Positions 5,148-57,158 of a DNA stretch of 64,000 bases are shown piece after piece (position 1 is the first letter of the stretch; each line of letters opens with the position of its first letter). Origin of the DNA: Anaerolineaceae bacterium (GTDB lineage Bacteria > Chloroflexota > Anaerolineae > Aggregatilineales > Phototrophicaceae); assembly GCA_026708325.1 (NCBI GenBank), contig JAPOVC010000014.1, positions 372,001-436,000 on the forward strand. The letters run 5' to 3'. The notes under the pieces are model-generated. The model ran no database searches, was not told the origin of the DNA, and was given only the letters and a program-made list of their open reading frames with translations. Both the position numbers and the translations under genes were made by a program.

Positions 5148-7027
5148 CCGTCCCCGCTGGCCTGCGCAGTGTCGTCTTCTGCCTCGCCCTCGTTCAGGCG
5201 CGCCAGCGCAGCCAGGCCCGCTTCATCGAAGGCCAGCGTCAGGGTCGCCCGCAGCGAATTCAGGGTAGCCGGTCTGACGTCCACATAGCCTGCGGCCTGC
5301 CAGTTGCGCAGGTTCTCTTCACTGGCCAGATACCAGAGGAAAGCCTGAAGTTGCGGCAGGGTAAGGCGGCTGCTGTTGGCGGCAAGCCAGGTGGTCCGGG
5401 ACAGCGGCCAGCTGCCGTCACGAATGCTTTCAGGCGAGGGAGCCACGCAGCCGTCGCCGACGTCCAGGGGCAGCAGTCGAATGCGTTCCTGGCCACTTTC
5501 CAGCACGCGCTGGTATTCCAGCCAGGTCATGAACGTAAGGGCGCCGGGCACATTTGCCGTAGCCGCTGCCCTGTAAAGGGGATCGTCGTCGAATTCAATG
5601 TCCGCTCGACCCAGGAGCCCGGCTTCTGCGACAGCCAGTACCTGGTCCATCGTCGTGCTGCCGGGACGCGGCGCGAAGAGGATCAGCGCTTCGTCCGCAT
5701 ATTCATTGTTCAGGTCCTGCCAGTTCAGAATCGAGCCTGATGATTCGGCCCGCCAGACGGTCCCCAGTTCTGCATTGCCCATACATTCTGGCGCCGCGCC
5801 ACTGGCAATGGCCAGCAACACCAGGGCACTGCTGCCCAGCGAGAAGGTTTCGATGTCGATGCTGCTTTCGCTGCAGGCGGCCAATTCTTCTTCCAGGGGG
5901 AGACGGTCAACGAACACCAGGTCCAGCGCGCCTGCACAGAGATCCCGCAGACCGGCTGCTGCACCCTGATGAAGAATCGTGGTCGAAAGCCCCTGGTTTT
6001 GGGCCTGAAACGCTTCCAGCGTGGAATTCACGAAACTGAAGGTCGTGCCGCTACCACCGATTCGCAGCGCGCCGGCAATGGTATCAGGAATGACGAAATC
6101 GCCGGCCACCAGAGGGGCCGCATCGCCTGCTTGCGCTGCGCTCAATCGTTCACGGTTGTCCCTGAAAACCGCTTCCGTCGGTGGAGTGAATCCGGCCGAG
6201 CGAACAATCCCCGCAGCATCGTCGCCCGCCACCAGCTCCAGAAGTTCACTGACGCCCGCATCCGCAAGTCGGGCGACACTGGCATAGAGCAGCAACTGGC
6301 TGGCCGCCGGGTAGAGACCATCCTCAACGGATTCAGCGGAGGGCGCCCGGCACCCCTCGCTGTCCGCCGTGTCAAGGGAAAGGACTGTGGCGTCCCCAAC
6401 CTTTTCCAGCAGGGAAACGCCGATGGTGCCGGGAGTTGAACTGACCTCCGTCACGGCATCCGTCGTGACCTGGGCGTCGCTGCGTAGCCCGTCGCCGCTG
6501 ACAATGGCGTCCAGCAGGCTGTAGCTTGCTGTCAACTCGGGAGGGACATGGACCGACAGGTTCAACTCTTCCGGCGCGTCATCCAACAACTGACTCCAGG
6601 TCGTCGCTGTCCCGGTGGCACTGGGCGCAAAAATCTCACTCAATTGCTTTTCATCAAGGCAAGGGGCCAGTTCCGCGACCCCGGGGTGGGCGATCAGGGC
6701 CAGAATGTTGTGGCCAAGGGTAAATTCGACAAGTGAAACGTCGTTTACGTTGCACACCTGCAGCAGGTCCTGGTCGATGGCCTGCGTTGAAGTGCTGAGC
6801 GCAGAAGCGCCCTCACACAGCATGGTCAGACCTGTGCGCGACCCCGTTGTCTCACTGACCAAATCGCCTTCGAGTTCTGCTGCTGCTATCATGGCCTGCA
6901 GCAGGGGCTCGACGATCGCTGAGCCCGTGACCCGCGTGGCGCCGTCCTGCGCCAGCAGCGCCGGGCCAGAGAGCAGAAATGCGAACAGCAGGACCACAGG
7001 TGCAGACAGTCGAAGACTGGGGACCAT
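5144..7027 (-). CDS. Secreted protein with two PstS-like phosphate-binding modules
   Basis: This 627-residue protein has a signal peptide (about residues 1-26, ending ALLAQ) and then two diverged copies of a PstS/PBP-like fold. Module one (about 30-285) begins RVTGSAIVEPL; module two (about 315-605) begins LRIGGSGTTFSF. Both keep a matching cysteine pattern (LC-x-GA, then two more Cys) and the same late block (GCRAPSAESVEDG versus GCVAPSPESIRDG). The tail after 605 is acidic. No phosphate transporter genes lie nearby. I use the ATG at 7027, which has GGAG 8 bases upstream, rather than the GTG at 7036 that overlaps that GGAG. The ligand is inferred, not shown. Confidence 0.75.
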   Translation of the reverse strand: MVPSLRLSAPVVLLFAFLLSGPALLAQDGATRVTGSAIVEPLLQAMIAAAELEGDLVSETTGSRTGLTMLCEGASALSTSTQAIDQDLLQVCNVNDVSLVEFTLGHNILALIAHPGVAELAPCLDEKQLSEIFAPSATGTATTWSQLLDDAPEELNLSVHVPPELTASYSLLDAIVSGDGLRSDAQVTTDAVTEVSSTPGTIGVSLLEKVGDATVLSLDTADSEGCRAPSAESVEDGLYPAASQLLLYASVARLADAGVSELLELVAGDDAAGIVRSAGFTPPTEAVFRDNRERLSAAQAGDAAPLVAGDFVIPDTIAGALRIGGSGTTFSFVNSTLEAFQAQNQGLSTTILHQGAAAGLRDLCAGALDLVFVDRLPLEEELAACSESSIDIETFSLGSSALVLLAIASGAAPECMGNAELGTVWRAESSGSILNWQDLNNEYADEALILFAPRPGSTTMDQVLAVAEAGLLGRADIEFDDDPLYRAAATANVPGALTFMTWLEYQRVLESGQERIRLLPLDVGDGCVAPSPESIRDGSWPLSRTTWLAANSSRLTLPQLQAFLWYLASEENLRNWQAAGYVDVRPATLNSLRATLTLAFDEAGLAALARLNEGEAEDDTAQASGDG

Positions 7028-46378: not shown

Positions 46379-47701
46379 GTGAACGACTATCGCTACGACG
46401 ACAACGAACACAGGGAAAGAGCCATTTTGGTGGGCGCGGCGATCAAGGGCAGCAACCCCTTGCTGGGCCTCGACGATTCGCTCGACGAACTGGCCCTGCT
46501 GGCGGACACGGCCGGCATGATGGTTTGCGGCAGAGCCAGCCAGCAGGTGGAACGCATTGACCCGGCGACCTGGATTGGTTCCGGCAAGGTGGATGAAGTC
46601 TGTTCCCTGATCGATGAATCTGACGCCGAAGTAGTGGTGTTTGACGACGAACTCTCGCCGCGTCATCAGCGCGAACTGGAGAAGCGCTTTGGCGAAGACG
46701 TCAAATTGCTGGACCGCTCGGCATTGATTCTGGATATTTTTGCCCAGCACGCCAGCACACGCGAAGGCGCGCTGCAGGTTGAGCTCGCCCAGTACGAGTA
46801 CCGCCTGCCGCGCTTGACCCGGCAATGGACGCATCTGGCCCGTCAGGCTGGAGGCGGCGCGGCGCGGGGCGGCGCAGGAGGTGTGGGACTGCGCGGCCCC
46901 GGCGAGACCCAGCTGGAAGTGGACCGCCGTGAAATTGGCCGCAAGATCCGAAAACTGAAACAGGACCTGTCCCAGGTCCGGGCGCACAGGGGCCGCTACC
47001 GCTCGCGCCGTACCCGTGGCAACATCCCGGTGGTCGCGCTGGTCGGTTATACCAACGCCGGCAAGTCCACTCTTTTTCGCGCCCTGACTGAGTCCAGCGT
47101 CTACGTCGCCGACCAGCTCTTTGCAACCCTTGATCCCACCACCCGCAAGACCCCGTTGCCTTCCGGCCGCGAAATCCTGCTGACGGACACTGTGGGCTTC
47201 ATTCAGAAGTTGCCCACCACGTTGATCGAGGCCTTTCAGGCCACGTTGGAGGAAGTGCTGGATGCCGACATGGCCCTGCACGTCGTGGATGCCTCGCATC
47301 CCAACGCACTTCAACATATTGAGGCGGTGGAGGATACGCTGGCCGCCATCGAAATGCCCCGTGTGCCCCATCTCCTGGTCTGGAACAAACTGGACCTGGC
47401 CGACGCCGAAGCGAAACAGCCACGCCTTCCGGGTGACCTCTATGCCGACGTCGCCGCGGTGTCGGCGCTCAAGGGAACGGGGCTGGACAACTTGCTTCAA
47501 CGGATTGAGAGTTTGCTGGCCGAAGGTGAACACGAGGTCCGGCTGCACCTGCCCTGGGACCGCGGAGACCTGATTTCGGTCCTCTATGATTCTGCAACCG
47601 TGGACCAGGTGGAACACAGGCCCGACGGCGTGACACTGACGGCTTCCCTCTCCGCCAGCCTCTACGACCGCTACAGAGAGTTTCTCGTCCCCACGCCATG
47701 A
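46379..47701 (+). CDS. hflX: Ribosome-splitting GTPase HflX
   Basis: HflX is a GTPase that dissociates stalled or idle ribosomes. The 440-residue protein has the N-terminal nucleotide-binding domain (WIGSGKVDEV, VVVFDDELSPRHQREL), the glycine-rich GGVGLRGPGETQLEVDRR, and G motifs GYTNAGKST (G1), TDTVGFIQKLP (G3) and NKLD (G4). The start is a GTG with a weak ribosome site 10 bp after trmFO. The stop overlaps the next gene as ATGA. Confidence 0.95.
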   Translation: MNDYRYDDNEHRERAILVGAAIKGSNPLLGLDDSLDELALLADTAGMMVCGRASQQVERIDPATWIGSGKVDEVCSLIDESDAEVVVFDDELSPRHQRELEKRFGEDVKLLDRSALILDIFAQHASTREGALQVELAQYEYRLPRLTRQWTHLARQAGGGAARGGAGGVGLRGPGETQLEVDRREIGRKIRKLKQDLSQVRAHRGRYRSRRTRGNIPVVALVGYTNAGKSTLFRALTESSVYVADQLFATLDPTTRKTPLPSGREILLTDTVGFIQKLPTTLIEAFQATLEEVLDADMALHVVDASHPNALQHIEAVEDTLAAIEMPRVPHLLVWNKLDLADAEAKQPRLPGDLYADVAAVSALKGTGLDNLLQRIESLLAEGEHEVRLHLPWDRGDLISVLYDSATVDQVEHRPDGVTLTASLSASLYDRYREFLVPTP

Positions 47702-48759
47702 GCGTTGGCCATTGCACCCGCCTTCTGCGTTCTCCTGAAGAGATGCAGGAAACCGTGGCCCTGCAACAGGAAATCTGGCATTCGCCCGGCGTCGAGGTCA
47801 TGCCGGTTCACGCCCTGTTAGCCACGTCAAAAAATGGCGGGCAGGTCCTGGGCGCATTCGTCGATGGCGCCCTGGCCGGAATGACCGTCGGGATGGCCGC
47901 CTGGCGCGACGGCCAACGTTTTCTGCTTTCCCACATGGCCGGCGTCCATCCGCGCTTTCAGGGCTCTGGCATCGGCACTGCCCTCAAATCGCGCCAAAGA
48001 GAAATAGCGCGTGACGCCGGCTATCGCAGCATTCGCTGGACCTTTGATCCCTTGCAACGAGGCAATGCCAATTTCAACTTTCGCCTGCCAGGAGTCAGTT
48101 CAGACCGATACTACGTGGACTACTACGGCGAAATGGAAGACGGGATCAATGCCGGCTTGCCCAGCGACCGGCTGGAAGCGCACTGGCCCACCCGCGGCAG
48201 ACGGCGACGCAAATCACCGGCGCCTGCATCGCCTGACCAACTCTTGCTCGCTTCCAACCGGGAGGGGCATCCAGAACACAGCGGCCCTGGCGAAAGTGAG
48301 GACGTCACCGGCATCGAGATTCCTGGGTCTCTGGCTGTGCTTAAGGAGAAGGACCCCTCGCTGGCGCTGGACTGGCGTCTGGCCGTACGAGAGGCCTTTG
48401 TCACGGCATTCGCCCGCGGGTTCCGGGCCGTGGACTTCATTTCCATGGATGAAAGGCCGGTCTATGTGCTTGCCGCGCCGCAACCCTGGTACCTCTACGT
48501 GTTGCAATGCAGTGACGGGTCGCTGTATACGGGCATAAGCGTGGACGTACAGCGCCGTCTTGGTCAGCATCAGGCAGGAAAGGGAGCCGTCTATACCGCC
48601 ATGCGCCGTCCCCTGCGCCTGCTGGCCTTCTGGCGTTATACCGGACAGGGGGCAGCCCGTCGCGCGGAAGCCGGCTTCAAGCAGTTGCCCAGAGCTGCCA
48701 AATTCGACCAGATAGCGTCGGCAACGACCTGGCAGGGCGGAAAACATCAGCGCCTGTAA
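47698..48759 (+). CDS. COG3375-like acetyltransferase fused to a GIY-YIG nuclease domain
   Basis: A 353-residue two-domain protein. Residues 1 to about 255 match the COG3375 GNAT-like family: the acetyl-CoA loop HPRFQGSGIGTALKSRQRE, then WTFDPLQRGNANFN and the late IEIPGSLAVLKEKDP and DWRLAVREAF blocks. Residues about 262-345 are a YhbQ-type GIY-YIG domain (WYLYVLQCSDGSLYTGISVD, RRLGQHQAGKG, then EAGFKQLPRAAK). The fold motifs Tyr, Arg and Glu are present, so the nuclease part may be active. It is coupled by ATGA to hflX. The reason for joining the two activities is unknown. Confidence 0.83.
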   Translation: MSVGHCTRLLRSPEEMQETVALQQEIWHSPGVEVMPVHALLATSKNGGQVLGAFVDGALAGMTVGMAAWRDGQRFLLSHMAGVHPRFQGSGIGTALKSRQREIARDAGYRSIRWTFDPLQRGNANFNFRLPGVSSDRYYVDYYGEMEDGINAGLPSDRLEAHWPTRGRRRRKSPAPASPDQLLLASNREGHPEHSGPGESEDVTGIEIPGSLAVLKEKDPSLALDWRLAVREAFVTAFARGFRAVDFISMDERPVYVLAAPQPWYLYVLQCSDGSLYTGISVDVQRRLGQHQAGKGAVYTAMRRPLRLLAFWRYTGQGAARRAEAGFKQLPRAAKFDQIASATTWQGGKHQRL

Positions 48760-48821: not shown

Positions 48822-50306
48822 ATGAGGAAGAAGTTTGCCCTGTTGCTGGCGTCCCTCATACTGCTCGTTCCGGCCCTTGCGGCTGGGGCGCAGGACCTGC
48901 CGGACCTCGGTGGCGCGACCATCACCGTGGCCGTCGAGAACGCCTACAAGCCCTTCAGCTTTATCGACGAGGCCAGCGGCGAAGCCGTCGGCTGGGACTA
49001 CGACACGCTCCACGAACTCTGTGACCGCCTTAACTGCGTGCCCGAATTCATCGAAACCGCCTGGGACGGCATGATCCTCGCCGTCTCCAACGGTGAATAC
49101 GACATGGCCGCCGACGGCATCACCATCAAGCCCGATCGCGCCGAAATCGTGGACTTCTCCGATGGCTACGTCTCCCTCGTGCAGGTCCTGCTCGGACGCA
49201 TCGACGAGATGCGCTTCGACGGTGGTGAGGCCCTCGCCGCGGACGAAAGCCTGCTGATCGGCGTCCAGCCCGGCACCACCAACTACTGGGTGGCGCTGGA
49301 ACTGGTCGGTGAGGAGCGCCTCGTCACCTACGAGACCTTCCCCGTCGCCGTGCAGGCCCTGATCGCCGGTGACGTCGACGCCGTCGTGATGGATGACGTC
49401 GCCGGTCAGGGTTACGTCGGCGTCAACGCCGACCTGCTGCAGATCGTCGGCGATCCGCTGACCTCCGAGGAAGAACTTGGATTCATCTTCCCGCTCGGCT
49501 CGGAGCTGCGCGATGCCATGAACGCCGGCCTCGATTCCATGCGCGAGGACGGCACGCTGGAGGCCATCAACAACAAGTGGTTCCTCGGGGCCGAACCTGC
49601 CGCGGCACTGCCGGACCTCGGTGGCGCGACCATCACCGTGGCCGTCGAGAACGCCTACAAGCCCTTCAGCTTTATCGACGAGGCCAGCGGCGAAGCCGTC
49701 GGCTGGGACTACGACACGCTCCACGAACTCTGTGACCGCCTTAACTGCGTGCCCGAATTCATCGAAACCGCCTGGGACGGCATGATCCTCGCCGTCTCCA
49801 ACGGTGAATACGACATGGCCGCCGACGGCATCACCATCAAGCCCGATCGCGCCGAAATCGTGGACTTCTCCGATGGCTACGTCTCCCTCGTGCAGGTCCT
49901 GCTCGGACGCATCGACGAGATGCGCTTCGACGGTGGTGAGGCCCTCGCCGCGGACGAAAGCCTGCTGATCGGCGTCCAGCCCGGCACCACCAACTACTGG
50001 GTGGCGCTGGAACTGGTCGGTGAGGAGCGCCTCGTCACCTACGAGACCTTCCCCGTCGCCGTGCAGGCCCTGATCGCCGGTGACGTCGACGCCGTCGTGA
50101 TGGATGACGTCGCCGGTCAGGGTTACGTCGGCGTCAACGCCGACCTGCTGCAGATCGTCGGCGATCCGCTGACCTCCGAGGAAGAACTTGGATTCATCTT
50201 CCCGCTCGGCTCGGAGCTGCGCGATGCCATGAACGCCGGCCTCGATTCCATGCGCGAGGACGGCACGCTGGAGGCCATTAACAACAAGTGGTTCCTCGGA
50301 GCCTGA
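48822..50306 (+). CDS. Amino-acid ABC transporter binding protein with two identical domains
   Basis: A 494-residue exported protein. A 25-residue signal peptide (ending AGAQD) is followed by a 232-residue family 3 solute-binding domain ([50 protein letters not shown]), a five-residue linker EPAAA, and a second copy identical in every residue. Each copy is a full two-lobed polar amino-acid binder. Codon use is unusually rich in CTC, GTC and GCC, as in a highly expressed gene. AAGGA lies 7 bases before the ATG. The permease gene follows after 45 bp. The duplication should be confirmed as real, not an assembly effect. Confidence 0.9.
48897..49592 (+). repeat. Direct repeat copy 1 (696 bp)
   Basis: First of two tandem copies offset by 711 bp. 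Copies differ at only two bases (49568 C versus 50279 T; 49589 G versus 50300 A), both silent. Confidence 0.97.
49608..50303 (+). repeat. Direct repeat copy 2 (696 bp)
   Basis: Second copy, separated from the first by a 15-bp in-frame spacer coding EPAAA and ending at the stop codon of the gene. Confidence 0.97.
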
Positions 50307-50351: not shown

Positions 50352-51254
50352 GTGGCTCCGCACCGTAGTCGCAGTTTCCAGCAGACATCGCTGGAAATCG
50401 CGGCGCGGCAAGCGCGTTCCCGGGTCGGGCCTGTAGACTGGCTCTACAGTTTCCCGTGGTGGGCGCTGACGATGGTCGTCGTCGGCGTCCTCATCGGCAT
50501 CAGCATTGCCGCGGATGCCATCTACTCGGATATCTTCGGCAAATTGCAGGCCGGCATCGCCATGTCCTTGCGCGTTGCCGGCTTTGCCTACGTCAGCGCC
50601 ATCCTGATTGGACTGGTGGTAGGCATGATTCGTTCCAGCGCTCCCCGCCCCGGCAAGGGCGTCGCGGGCCGCCTGGGAAGTCTGCTGCACCTGTTTCTCT
50701 ACAACCTTGCATCACTATACGTGGCGATCATGCGCGGCCTGCCGATATTGATCGTGTTGCTCATCTTCGCCTTCGTCATCGTTCCTGCGGTTAGGCGCTG
50801 GATTACCGAAGTGACTGGCGTGGCATTCACGTTTCGCGGCAGCTCCTGGGAATCGGCGGTAATCGCCCTGGCCTTCACCTATGGCGCTTTCCTCTCGGAG
50901 ACCTTTCGCGCGGGCATTCAGTCCATTGAGACGGGTCAAAGCGAGGCTGCCCGGTCCCTTGGCATGACCTGGTTCCAGTCGATGCGATTCATCATCCTGC
51001 CGCAGGCCATACGTCGCATTCTGCCGCCCCTGGGAAACGACCTGGTCGCCATGATCAAGGACTCGGCGCTGGTCTCCATCCTCGGCGTTCGCGACATCAC
51101 GCAAATCGCCAAGGTGTCTTCCGGCGCATCCTTCCGTTACCTGGAGACTTATTCGGTCGCCGCGATGATTTACCTGCTTCTGACGTTTCTCGGCATGCTG
51201 GGCGTCGGACTTGTCGAACGGCGCAACCGAAACTACCCCGGTGAGGACTCCTGA
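50352..51254 (+). CDS. Amino-acid ABC transporter permease
   Basis: A 300-residue HisM/GlnP-type permease with about six helices. The N-terminal start of the family (ASLYVAIMRGLPILIVLLIF) and the ATPase-contact EAA loop (SEAARSLGMTWFQSMRFIILPQAIRRILPPLGN) are clear. The start is a GTG with AAGGAG 10 bases upstream. It belongs with the preceding binding protein; no ATP-binding subunit follows, so one must be encoded elsewhere. Confidence 0.93.
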   Translation: MAPHRSRSFQQTSLEIAARQARSRVGPVDWLYSFPWWALTMVVVGVLIGISIAADAIYSDIFGKLQAGIAMSLRVAGFAYVSAILIGLVVGMIRSSAPRPGKGVAGRLGSLLHLFLYNLASLYVAIMRGLPILIVLLIFAFVIVPAVRRWITEVTGVAFTFRGSSWESAVIALAFTYGAFLSETFRAGIQSIETGQSEAARSLGMTWFQSMRFIILPQAIRRILPPLGNDLVAMIKDSALVSILGVRDITQIAKVSSGASFRYLETYSVAAMIYLLLTFLGMLGVGLVERRNRNYPGEDS

Positions 51255-52509: not shown

Positions 52510-54027
52510 ATGCGCTTGCCTCGACTGACAGAGCTGGCACTGTTGTGTTGCCTGGCGCTGCTGACGCTTTCCTGTAGCCCTTCCCGGCAGGGAGGGGACC
52601 TGCTGGTGACGCTGCTGACCGACGGTTCGGAGCGTTCCATTCTGGTGCCTGCATCCACTTCTGTGTCTTCCCTGCTCGAACAGGCGGATGTCGTGCTGGG
52701 CCCCCTCGATCGGATCGAGCCCCCACTGACCACCATGCTGCTTGATGACACCCGCATTACGATCGTCCGGGTGCTTGAAGAGGAGCGCTGCCAGCGCCAC
52801 CCCATTCCCTTTCGGGTAGTTGGCCCTGGCGAAACTGCCAGCGGCGCCACCCAACGCGTTCAGACGGGCTTGCCGGGAGAGGAAGAACGCTGCCATCGAA
52901 TTCGATTTGAGGACGGAATCGAACGGGACCGCGTGGAAACCAGCCGTGTCGTCATTCGAGAAGCGGTTGATGAAGTCTGGCAGGAAGACACCCTGACCGA
53001 AGTCGAGCCGCTTTCCTTTCCCGGGACTCTGGTCTGGTTGAGCGGCGGCAATGCATGGCTGGCGCGCGGGAACAGCGACCGGTTGCGCCAGTTGACGCAG
53101 GACGGGAAACTGGATGGCAGGGTGCTGTCGCTTTCTGCCGACGGCAACCGCCTACTCTACACAAGAAAACAGGTTGAAGAGCGAAATAATTCGGGTGGCA
53201 ATGCATTGTGGCTCATCCAGGACCTGGACAATCCTTCCAATATTGTTCGGCTGCTGCCGGAGAACGTACTTCATGCCGGCTGGAGGCCAGGAAGTGCCGT
53301 GGAATTCGCCTATACGGACAGCGCGGCGAAGAAGAGTGTCTCGATTTTGCGCATTGATCCCGATACAGGAGAGATCCTGTCGTTTCGCGAACTGCTGGCA
53401 CCGAATCCTGAGGACGGAGCGCAGCATGCCATCACAGGTTTCAATTGGTCAGGTGATGGCAGGCAGCTCTCCTGGGTGCAGGGGGCTTCCATCGGAATAA
53501 TGGATATGAACGGCAACAACGTCTCCTTGTCATCGGGTGAAACCGGCATTGGGAACGCGACGGCCCCTTGCGCCAGTCATGCTCCGGTCTGGTCCCCTGA
53601 CAACCGCTTCGTCGCGATCGCTTCGCCGGCAAGGTTGGATGCGCCTTCATCGCTTTCCATCATCGACTGGAAGGGTGAATTGCAGGTCCCGCTGGTGACA
53701 AACGTTGGGCCCTGCCCCGCACCCGCGTGGGCGCCGGTTCGGGAGTCCGGATTGCTGGCCCATTTGCAGGCCAGGGACCCCGACCGCCCTGTCTCGCGCG
53801 CGGGTCATGAACTGATGATTCTTGATCGCGACGGCAGCAATCAGACATTGCTTTTCCCGGATGCCGGTCAGCCCGGTCTTGAGCCACAGCAAGTGGTCTG
53901 GAGCTCGGACGCGCGGCTGCTCGCCCTGATCTGGCAGGAACAACTTTGGCTTGTCGACGTCCTCAGCGCCGAGGCATGGCCATTTCCATTCTCCGGCGAC
54001 GTTTCCCGCATTGAGTGGTCTCGCTGA
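52510..54027 (+). CDS. Lipoprotein with DUF348, G5 and TolB-like propeller domains
   Basis: A 505-residue lipoprotein. The signal peptide ends in a lipobox (LTLSC, Cys about 22). Residues about 30-90 form a DUF348 domain (RSILVPASTSVSSLLEQADVV), about 90-155 a G5 domain (RCQRHPIPFRVV, then RIRFEDGIERDRVETSR), and about 170-505 a TolB-like beta-propeller (LSLSADGNRLLYTR, APVWSPDNRFVAIASPA). DUF348-G5 modules occur in wall-associated proteins and G5 binds sugars or zinc. Its TGA shares a base with the next ATG (TGATG), coupling it to the glycosidase-ligase fusion. Confidence 0.8.
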   Translation: MRLPRLTELALLCCLALLTLSCSPSRQGGDLLVTLLTDGSERSILVPASTSVSSLLEQADVVLGPLDRIEPPLTTMLLDDTRITIVRVLEEERCQRHPIPFRVVGPGETASGATQRVQTGLPGEEERCHRIRFEDGIERDRVETSRVVIREAVDEVWQEDTLTEVEPLSFPGTLVWLSGGNAWLARGNSDRLRQLTQDGKLDGRVLSLSADGNRLLYTRKQVEERNNSGGNALWLIQDLDNPSNIVRLLPENVLHAGWRPGSAVEFAYTDSAAKKSVSILRIDPDTGEILSFRELLAPNPEDGAQHAITGFNWSGDGRQLSWVQGASIGIMDMNGNNVSLSSGETGIGNATAPCASHAPVWSPDNRFVAIASPARLDAPSSLSIIDWKGELQVPLVTNVGPCPAPAWAPVRESGLLAHLQARDPDRPVSRAGHELMILDRDGSNQTLLFPDAGQPGLEPQQVVWSSDARLLALIWQEQLWLVDVLSAEAWPFPFSGDVSRIEWSR

Positions 54028-57000
54028 TGCGTCAGTCGGTTCTGGTCCTTGTCTCGCTGGCCGCCGTTGCCGGCAGCCTGGTGGCAACGCTGGTTACCGT
54101 TGTCGAACGCGATCGTCTGCTGCGCGGGTACGCCAATGCCACACAGATGATTGACCTTCCCCCGGTGCAGCCAGAACTCGGCGTCAATGCCGAGTTGACG
54201 CAATACACGGCAGACGAACTGGACGATCACCTTACCCGCATGGACAGGGCGGGCATCACCTGGCTGCGTCAGCAATTCCGGTGGAATGAAATCGAAACGC
54301 AGCCGGGAGTATATGACTGGGACGAAACGGACAACATCGTCGCCGCCCTTGCGGACCATCCGCAAATGCGACTGGTCGCCGTTTTGCTAAACACCCCCGC
54401 CTTTGCCCGCAGCGTTGACCACGTAACAGCCCCACCGCGAGACCCGGCCGCATTCGCCGCCTTCGCGCAGGTCTTCGCAGGCCGTTATGGGGATGTTATC
54501 GACTATTACCAGATTTGGGACGAGCCCAACCTGACAGACGCATGGGGGCAACTGGACCCGTCGCCGACGCATTACCTTAAGATGTTGCAGGCCGCCTGGC
54601 GGGTCATTCATGACGTTGATGCAGAAGCTACCGTCATCGCTGCCGCTCTGGCGCCAACCACCGAAAAGGGGCCACGCAACGTCAGCGACATCGACTATCT
54701 GGCGTCCCTGTATGCGCTCGGCGCCGCCGACTGGATGGACGTCGTCGCCGCCAAGCCCTATGGCTTCGATACTTCACCGGACGATCGCCGTGTGTCGCCC
54801 GACCACCTGAACTTTTCGCGCATCATCGCCCTGCGCGAACTCATGACGCGCCATGGCGATGGCGACAAGCCCATGCATGCCAGCGCCTGGGGCTGGAACA
54901 GCCTGCCGGAAGACTGGAGTGGCGCGCCTTCAATTTGGGGTGCAGTGACCAGCGAACAACGCAGCGAGTGGACTCTGGCGGCGCTGGAACGGGCGCAACG
55001 GGAATGGCCCTGGCTGGGCGCCATGATCTTGCAGCATTGGCAGCCGCCGTACCCGGTTGACGATCCGCAACAGGGTTTCGCGCTGCTGGATGCCAACAAT
55101 CAGGAGACGCCCACCCTGCTGGCGCTTGAAGCGCGCGCGCCCGCCAGAGGCGCAGGGGTCGGCTTTCACCCGGTGGACAGCCCATGGGCGCAGTACAGCG
55201 GCCAGTGGTCCTTTGGTATCCAGGGCGCAGACTTCGGTTGGTCCAATGACAGCGAAGTGCTGTTTGACTTCATCGGTGAGGAAGTAGCCCTGCGCGTGCG
55301 GGAAGGGGATTATGTCGCCTGGTTTTACGCCAGCGTAGACGGGGAACCGGCCAACGCCCTGCCCCGCGATCCGAAGGGCAATGCCTACCTCACCCTGACC
55401 AGCGCCACCCGTCAGCCCAGGGAACAGCTCGTGACCCTGGCCCGCGATCTGGGTCCGGGTCCGCATCGCCTGACGCTTTCGGCAGTTGATCTGGTGGCGC
55501 AGGAACGCCAGCCACGTTGGGCGTTTGGCGGCTTCGCAGTCGGCCTGGGCGATCCTGCGCTCAGCTGGCAGCGGCAAATCAGCGCCGGCCTGCTGGCAAC
55601 CGTGGTGTCGGCTTTTGCCCTGTTCCAGTCGCTCAGGGGCCTCGAATGGCGAGGGCTGCTGGATCGCCTGGCAGGCAAATGGCCCTCTCCGCCCTTTGGG
55701 CCCGAACGCCTTGTCGGCCTTCTTGCTTCGCTTATCCTGATGGTCGGCATGTTGTTTACCTGGGGAGACGCGTTGCCGGCACTGGTCCGGCGTGAGGCAC
55801 TCCACCCCTTGCTGGCCGTCTTCACCGCCGGGCTCGTCCTCCTGCAGCCCGGGCCATTGATCACCCTCGTTGCCCTGTTGCTTCTCTTTGTATTGTTCTT
55901 CAATCGTCCGGCACTGGGACTGATGCTCACGCTCTTTTGGGCGCCCTTCTACCTGTTTCCGCTCCAGCTCTTCCGCTTCGCCTTTCCACTGGCGGAGGTG
56001 ATGATCCTGCTAACCACCCTGGCATGGAGTAGCCGACAGTTGCTGAATTGGGCGCGACAGCACAAGGGACTGCTCCAAAGATCACCGTCTGCGCCTCGAG
56101 TTCGTGCGGTGAATTCACTGGATTTGCTGCTGTTGCTGTGGCTGCTGTTTGGGTTGGTCGCCTTCACCTGGTCACGGGAAAGCGGGCCGGCCCTGACCGA
56201 ATTGCGCGTTCTCTTTGTCGAGCCCGCCCTCTTCTATTTGATCTTCCGACACGAAGCGCGGGACCTGAAGACGCGAACTCAACTGACGGACGCCCTGCTC
56301 GCGGCCGGGTTGCTGGTCGCGTTGATTGGCCTGTGGCTCTTCTTCAGGGGCGAAGGGGTTATCACCGCTGAGGGTGGGGCCCGTCGACTGGTCAGCGTTT
56401 ACGGCTCTCCCAACAATGCCGCCCTTTTCCTCGGGCGTTGTTTGCCATTTGCGCTGGCCTGGACGCTGTCGGGGCCCTGGCAGCTGCGTCGCTGGCTGGC
56501 GCTTGCGATCAGCGTTGTCTGCCTGCTGGCCTTCCTCCTGACGCAAAGTGCCGGTGGATTGCTGCTGGGCCTGCCGCTTTCGCTGGCGACCCTTGCGCTG
56601 ATCCACTGGCGGCGCCGTGCAATCCTGCCACTGGTTGGTCTGTCCGCGGTCGGCGCTGCCACTTTCGCCATTCTCACGGCCAGCAGCCCGCGCTTTGCCC
56701 GCCTGCTCGATTTTACCAGCGGCACGGTGCGCATCCGTTTGCAACTGTGGCAAAGTACCCTGGCCATGTTGCGCGACGACCCCCTGCGTGGCCTTGGGCT
56801 GGACCAGTTTCTCTACGCCTATCGTGACATCTGGATTCTGCCGGACGCCTGGCGTGAGCCCAATTTGTCCCATCCCCACAACATCCTGTTTGACTTCTGG
56901 GTCCGCCTGGGCCTGGCGGGCCCGCTGCTTTTGATCGCCCTGCTGGCCGCCTTTTGGCGCGGAGCGCTCCAGGCCCTGCGCCGCGTATCCCGATATGAAG

Positions 57001-57158
57001 AAAAAGCCCTGCTGGCCGGCGCCGCAGGCTCCATGGTCAGCCTTGTTGCGCACGGTCTGGTCGACAACAGTGTGTTCATCCACGACCTGGTGTACGTCTT
57101 TGTCCTGCTCCCAGGTCTCGTATGCAACGCAGGGATGGACGAAAAACGGGCCGATTGA
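54027..57158 (+). CDS. Glycosidase-like domain fused to O-antigen-ligase-like membrane domain
   Basis: A 1043-residue protein. One N-terminal helix (about 4-26) leads to an external GH39/cellulase-like TIM barrel (about 45-400) with acid/base Glu166 in YQIWDEPNL. The expected nucleophile segment (usually TEFGW) reads S286-A-W-G-W290, so the nucleophile Glu is Ala. A beta-sandwich (about 400-500) follows, then about 11-12 helices with a Wzy_C/WaaL-like motif ([12 protein letters not shown], then [12 protein letters not shown], about 905-945). It may recognise one glycan and join another to it. The frame is open four codons upstream. Confidence 0.8.

Follow-up and report, generated by a model that had tools for sequence, protein, structure and literature searches.

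Two stretches of coding DNA that are almost letter-for-letter identical and lie in one reading frame raise the question of whether the gene was doubled only recently or whether an old doubling is kept uniform, and of what a binding protein with two equal domains might offer its transporter. We addressed this question in a 64,000-nucleotide stretch of DNA from a Chloroflexota bacterium (the window), in which the ORF at 48822-50306 (+ strand) encodes a protein of 494 amino acids with two family-3 amino-acid-binding domains (SBP_bac_3). Comparison of the ORF, the repeats and the codons confirmed the preliminary description of this gene, namely 696-bp copies with two silent differences and an EPAAA linker. 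The direct repeats are spaced at 711 bp and joined in frame by the 15-bp sequence GAACCTGCCGCGGCA, which encodes the linker (Table 1), and the two domains are 100% identical as proteins. The silent mismatches are at unit position 672, where 49568 has C and 50279 has T, and at unit position 693, with G at 49589 and A at 50300. Both lie within 25 bp of the end of the unit (P=0.003 for this clustering by permutation), and the unbroken identical run of more than 670 bp is far above chance.

Table 1. Features of the twin-domain gene and its permease (window positions), and third domains in the sister genus g18 (positions in the loci named)
Feature	Coordinates	Strand	Basis or remark
Signal peptide, 25 residues, no lipobox cysteine	48822..48896	+	sequence; lipobox scan of relatives; pLDDT <50 at residues 1-23
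Substrate-binding domain 1 (SBP_bac_3), 232 codons	48897..49592	+	repeat comparison, profile match, model
Linker EPAAA, 15 bp; homologous in same-genus species (EPVAA, EPAAV)	49593..49607	+	pLDDT <50 at residues 256-261
Substrate-binding domain 2; silent differences 50279, 50300 (partners 49568, 49589)	49608..50303	+	repeat comparison
Single amino-acid-type ABC permease (BPD_transp_1)	50352..51254	+	profile match; order kept in relatives
Third domain after UGA	L039:6411-7112, L055:5914-6614, L056:6414-7115, L080:6411-7112, L069:86-784		in frame with two-domain ORF

The window protein matched the SBP_bac_3 profile (PF00497) in two stretches with 224.8 bits against a cut-off of 26.4 (E=3e-67), and each repeat copy spans a complete domain in this search. 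Its AlphaFold2 model (mean pLDDT 87) shows two confident domains separated by a disordered linker, and the pTM of 0.50 indicates that their relative arrangement is not fixed. The model has the type II periplasmic-binding fold, matching 4f3p, 2q2c and others with Z of about 30 and rmsd of 1.4-1.9. Each modelled domain matches glutamine-, arginine/lysine/histidine- and ancestral arginine-binding proteins with Z of about 27-30, no one ligand being singled out by these structure matches, and the sequence matches of the domains are to ancestral amino-acid-binding proteins and ArtJ. The twin binder is likely to bind a polar or cationic amino acid. The single-domain proteins GlnH, ArtJ, LAO/ArgT and AncQR share with it the fold, the SBP_bac_3 family and an apparent amino-acid pocket, but they have one domain per protein where the window protein has two. 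The protein had been described as a double binder anchored to one signal peptide; a single signal peptide is indeed present, but it has no lipobox, as is the case for most other two-domain members in the lipobox scan, and thus the protein seems to be secreted or signal-anchored, with no indication of lipid anchoring.

Taken with the relatives of the gene, the data argue strongly for a reading that we hold to be highly probable: the twin binder is the substrate-binding protein (SBP) of an amino-acid ABC importer with tethered domains of the same specificity, its doubling is old and conserved, and recombination between the repeats homogenises the copies. From Anaerolineae genomes we gathered 52 distinct two-domain ORFs, two domains being the rule, and at least 50 Anaerolineae genes encode such a protein with a single permease downstream of it.

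The two copies might conceivably be a product of assembly, a one-domain gene or a larger array having been misassembled as two copies, since more than 670 identical bp in a direct repeat are difficult with short reads and could be collapsed or miscounted. Nearly all loci compared are metagenome assemblies, the copy number in the window was read from the assembly rather than from reads, and the contigs of at least nine relatives break inside the tandem array, so that the number of near-identical arrays is probably underestimated and some of them may contain more copies than were assembled. However, two copies, set apart by 5 differences other than those of the window, are also present in a same-genus MAG with a 1.5-Mb contig (L004/L033); in the one-contig genome G029/L009 the two copies are 99.1% identical, and in L005 they are more diverged. 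With two copies assembled independently in two same-genus MAGs, and with the copies in L005 and G029/L009, we regard an artefact as very unlikely.

The preliminary description had left the choice between a very recent duplication and copies kept uniform by gene conversion. Two silent mismatches over 696 bp would, taken alone, fit a tandem duplication in the window lineage with no prior history, but both same-genus species, L004 and L005, have a two-domain gene, and the DNA encoding their linkers (EPVAA and EPAAV) is homologous to the 15-bp linker of the window, which places the duplication before the split of the three. The two-domain architecture, moreover, recurs across the family and the order. 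Within-gene mismatches over the 696 positions number 2 in the window, 5 in L004 and 45 in L005. Between window and L004 there are 28-32 differences, mostly at third positions; at 27 sites the two copies within each are alike and differ from the two of the other, and only one site (693) is still position-specific in the two species. Since the linker is homologous and yet joint changes so outnumber position-specific ones, the copies must have been homogenised after the species split. A recent duplication is rejected by the common linker, as otherwise identical junctions would have arisen three times, and by these same-genus site patterns, and we give it hardly any credence; of the two options offered, the one that stands is gene conversion, or unequal exchange to the same effect. 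Selection on codons rather than recombination would find an argument in the strong protein-level constraint that the 100% identical domains imply, but it has next to no probability, as silent sites vary freely between species (the 28-32 between window and L004) while doing so jointly in both copies, and many silent differences separate the copies in relatives.

Silent sites at which species differ while the two copies in a gene change jointly are a mark of concerted evolution, and the family shows its defining pattern, with copies within a gene closer to each other than to their orthologues after an ancestral duplication common to both. DNA identity between domains 1 and 2 within a gene ranges from 62.8 to 99.9% (first 48 of the 52 ORFs), with patchy identical tracts that are significantly clustered in 11 of 52 genes (P<0.01); in L040, 134 comparable codons in a row are free of silent change. 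The two domains are sisters in the tree in 25 of 52 genes. In L039 domain 2 resembles domain 1, and its identity to orthologues is 73-75% compared with 90-95% for domain 1; judged by sequence, this domain 2 is evidently one replaced by domain-1-like sequence. Closeness of copies and mosaic identical tracts are also known from other tandem repeats under concerted evolution, and the present family differs from the usual gene-conversion repeats in that the units are two whole 232-residue binding domains in one bacterial ORF. We propose that recombination between the 711-bp direct repeats, either gene conversion or expansion and contraction through unequal exchange, repeatedly overwrites one copy with the other, which explains why the window copies are identical except for the last 25 bp. 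Gene conversion and unequal crossing-over via a three-copy intermediate are indistinguishable here.

The gene order in the window comprises an HflX-type GTPase, a GNAT/GIY-YIG gene, the SBP gene and the single permease; the name of the first, upstream of the GNAT/GIY-YIG gene, is one we take from its sequence. The gene at 47698-48759, directly upstream of the SBP gene, encodes a fusion of a GNAT acetyltransferase with a GIY-YIG domain. The order HflX, GNAT, SBP and permease is also found in L034, L037, L066 and L067, where HflX and GNAT were identified by eye, and in this same chromosomal place L066 has a one-domain SBP and L034, L037 and L067 have a two-domain SBP. With its BPD_transp_1 domain, the permease supplies the cognate operon partner of a polar amino-acid ABC importer, and its best NCBIfam names are of the Ehu/Gln/Art type, under the cut-off. 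Further downstream, 52510-54027 encodes a protein in which DUF348 and G5 domains were recognised together with a weak match to a WD40-like propeller. The 1047-residue product of 54015-57158 carries an O-antigen ligase domain (Wzy_C) at its C terminus, preceded by a long stretch that has no Pfam match at 1e-3.

No cognate ATPase gene is adjacent to the SBP-permease pair in the window. The nearest ATPase of the polar-amino-acid type is on another contig (G000:C4:14107-14826), where it adjoins another permease; it is the only ATPase of the genome to pass E 1e-40 in a search with the one that neighbours a related SBP-permease pair (L070). In L035, permeases and an ATPase are found just upstream of the SBP-permease pair, and this arrangement suggests that the ATPase encoded on contig C4 serves the twin binder and its permease.

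The closest known system is GlnPQ of Lactococcus lactis (PMC8025302; PDB 6h30), which likewise has tandem family-3 substrate-binding domains (SBDs) on a flexible linker serving one importer. In GlnPQ, however, the SBDs are fused to the permease, whereas the window SBP is separate (stop at 50306, permease ORF from 50352); the GlnPQ linker has 14 residues against 5; SBD1 and SBD2 differ in specificity whereas the window domains are identical in sequence; and the window, unlike GlnPQ, has no adjacent ATPase. Ligand binding by each SBD of GlnPQ is independent of the other, and strongly shortened linkers altered domain behaviour (PMC8025302), so that with a five-residue linker some interaction between the twins is possible. 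In the model that we propose, one signal peptide exports both domains, each would close on its ligand independently, both would pass the ligand on to the one permease, which is probably a homodimer, and the polar-amino-acid-type ATPase encoded elsewhere would power it. By analogy with GlnPQ, the twins should be two equal, independent binders that bring more loaded domains near one permease. The anatomy agrees with the earlier proposal of a double binder for a single permease, a free two-domain SBP preceding one permease gene; the benefit is one that we infer. Our literature searches found GlnPQ and no report of the twin-domain SBP family described here. Tandem SBDs are thus already known, and this old, homogenised family is a conserved but variable variant of them.

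The preliminary description had suggested that copy number may vary between cells; the variation seen here is between species, which clearly differ in the number and order of SBP domains, with one at the same locus, two as the usual state and three in frame in one genome. All three forms, whose existence in relatives the preliminary description had proposed to search for, were found: one domain in L066, two in the 52 ORFs and three in G274. In the latter (G274:C253, L149) an unbroken three-domain ORF lies in an 820-residue open frame, with domains 1 and 2 at 92.6% nucleotide identity and domain 3 at about 76% to both. One domain lineage of the sister genus g18 (starred, 100) is second in L052 and L053 and first in L011, L046, L050, L060, L062 and L104, and such a shifting position is what an array that expands and contracts should produce. 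Recombination, a cost of carrying long direct repeats, would thereby both keep the copies identical and let domain number drift between species. In this family nature provides binders with one, two or three domains, in one case at the same place and including identical pairs, and with them one can study how an ABC importer responds to the number of tethered sites while specificity is unchanged. The family is also a clear example from bacteria of concerted evolution at the level of domains, and it points to a candidate for a conserved readthrough stop codon. As a separate observation, L060 has a decayed and internally deleted remnant of a third domain (~6395-6550) directly behind a TAG stop.

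The readthrough candidate comes from five g18 genomes (L039, L055, L056, L080 and L069, the last including only the end of domain 2), in which an intact third SBP domain follows in frame directly after the ATG-TGA that ends the two-domain ORF; the window gene itself has no third domain behind its stop. The sequence ATG TGA CTG CC is invariant at the stop in all five, and the corresponding place in L039, the in-frame linker 1, encodes EEEMMLPDL. The third domains form one clade (100, starred) while in the permease tree their hosts split into two separate clades, which indicates that the arrangement is old or has moved. They are under purifying selection, with pN/pS of about 0.2 and neutrality rejected down to P of 1e-25, by which a dead remnant is rejected for all five. 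In the first 40 codons after the stop pN/pS is 0.13-0.17 in comparisons with the distant L069, so that this stretch too is constrained, whereas among the four close species it has, taken by itself, too few changes to be informative. In the five genomes the third domain has neither a start nor a signal peptide of its own, and reinitiation was rejected on the absence of an ATG start-stop overlap and of a signal peptide and on the constraint directly after the stop in the L069 comparisons. Genome-wide reassignment of TGA is unsupported, as the permease matches listed in the third-domain genomes have no internal stop, and the code therefore looks standard.

Decoding of this UGA as selenocysteine is less likely: SelB is present in 7 of 7 genomes tested, but no conserved hairpin follows the UGA (z-scores -0.5 to -1.2). 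Among E. coli stop codons UGA leaks most, and it is mostly read as tryptophan (PMC11126739). From the sequences, low-level readthrough, by which some of the molecules would gain a third, diverged binder, suggests itself as the simplest reading. We give an even chance to the fuller proposal, that the leaky UGA in g18 yields mostly a two-domain and in a minority a three-domain binder, so that one gene would make two receptor forms. If true, a transport gene on a bacterial chromosome would have conserved, programmed readthrough of a stop codon, which would be unusual.

Two relatives, L072 and L151, have one family-3 SBP domain in a very long ORF (1444 and 1078 residues, respectively), and in L151 this domain is followed by what appear to be two more binding domains of another type, similar to each other.
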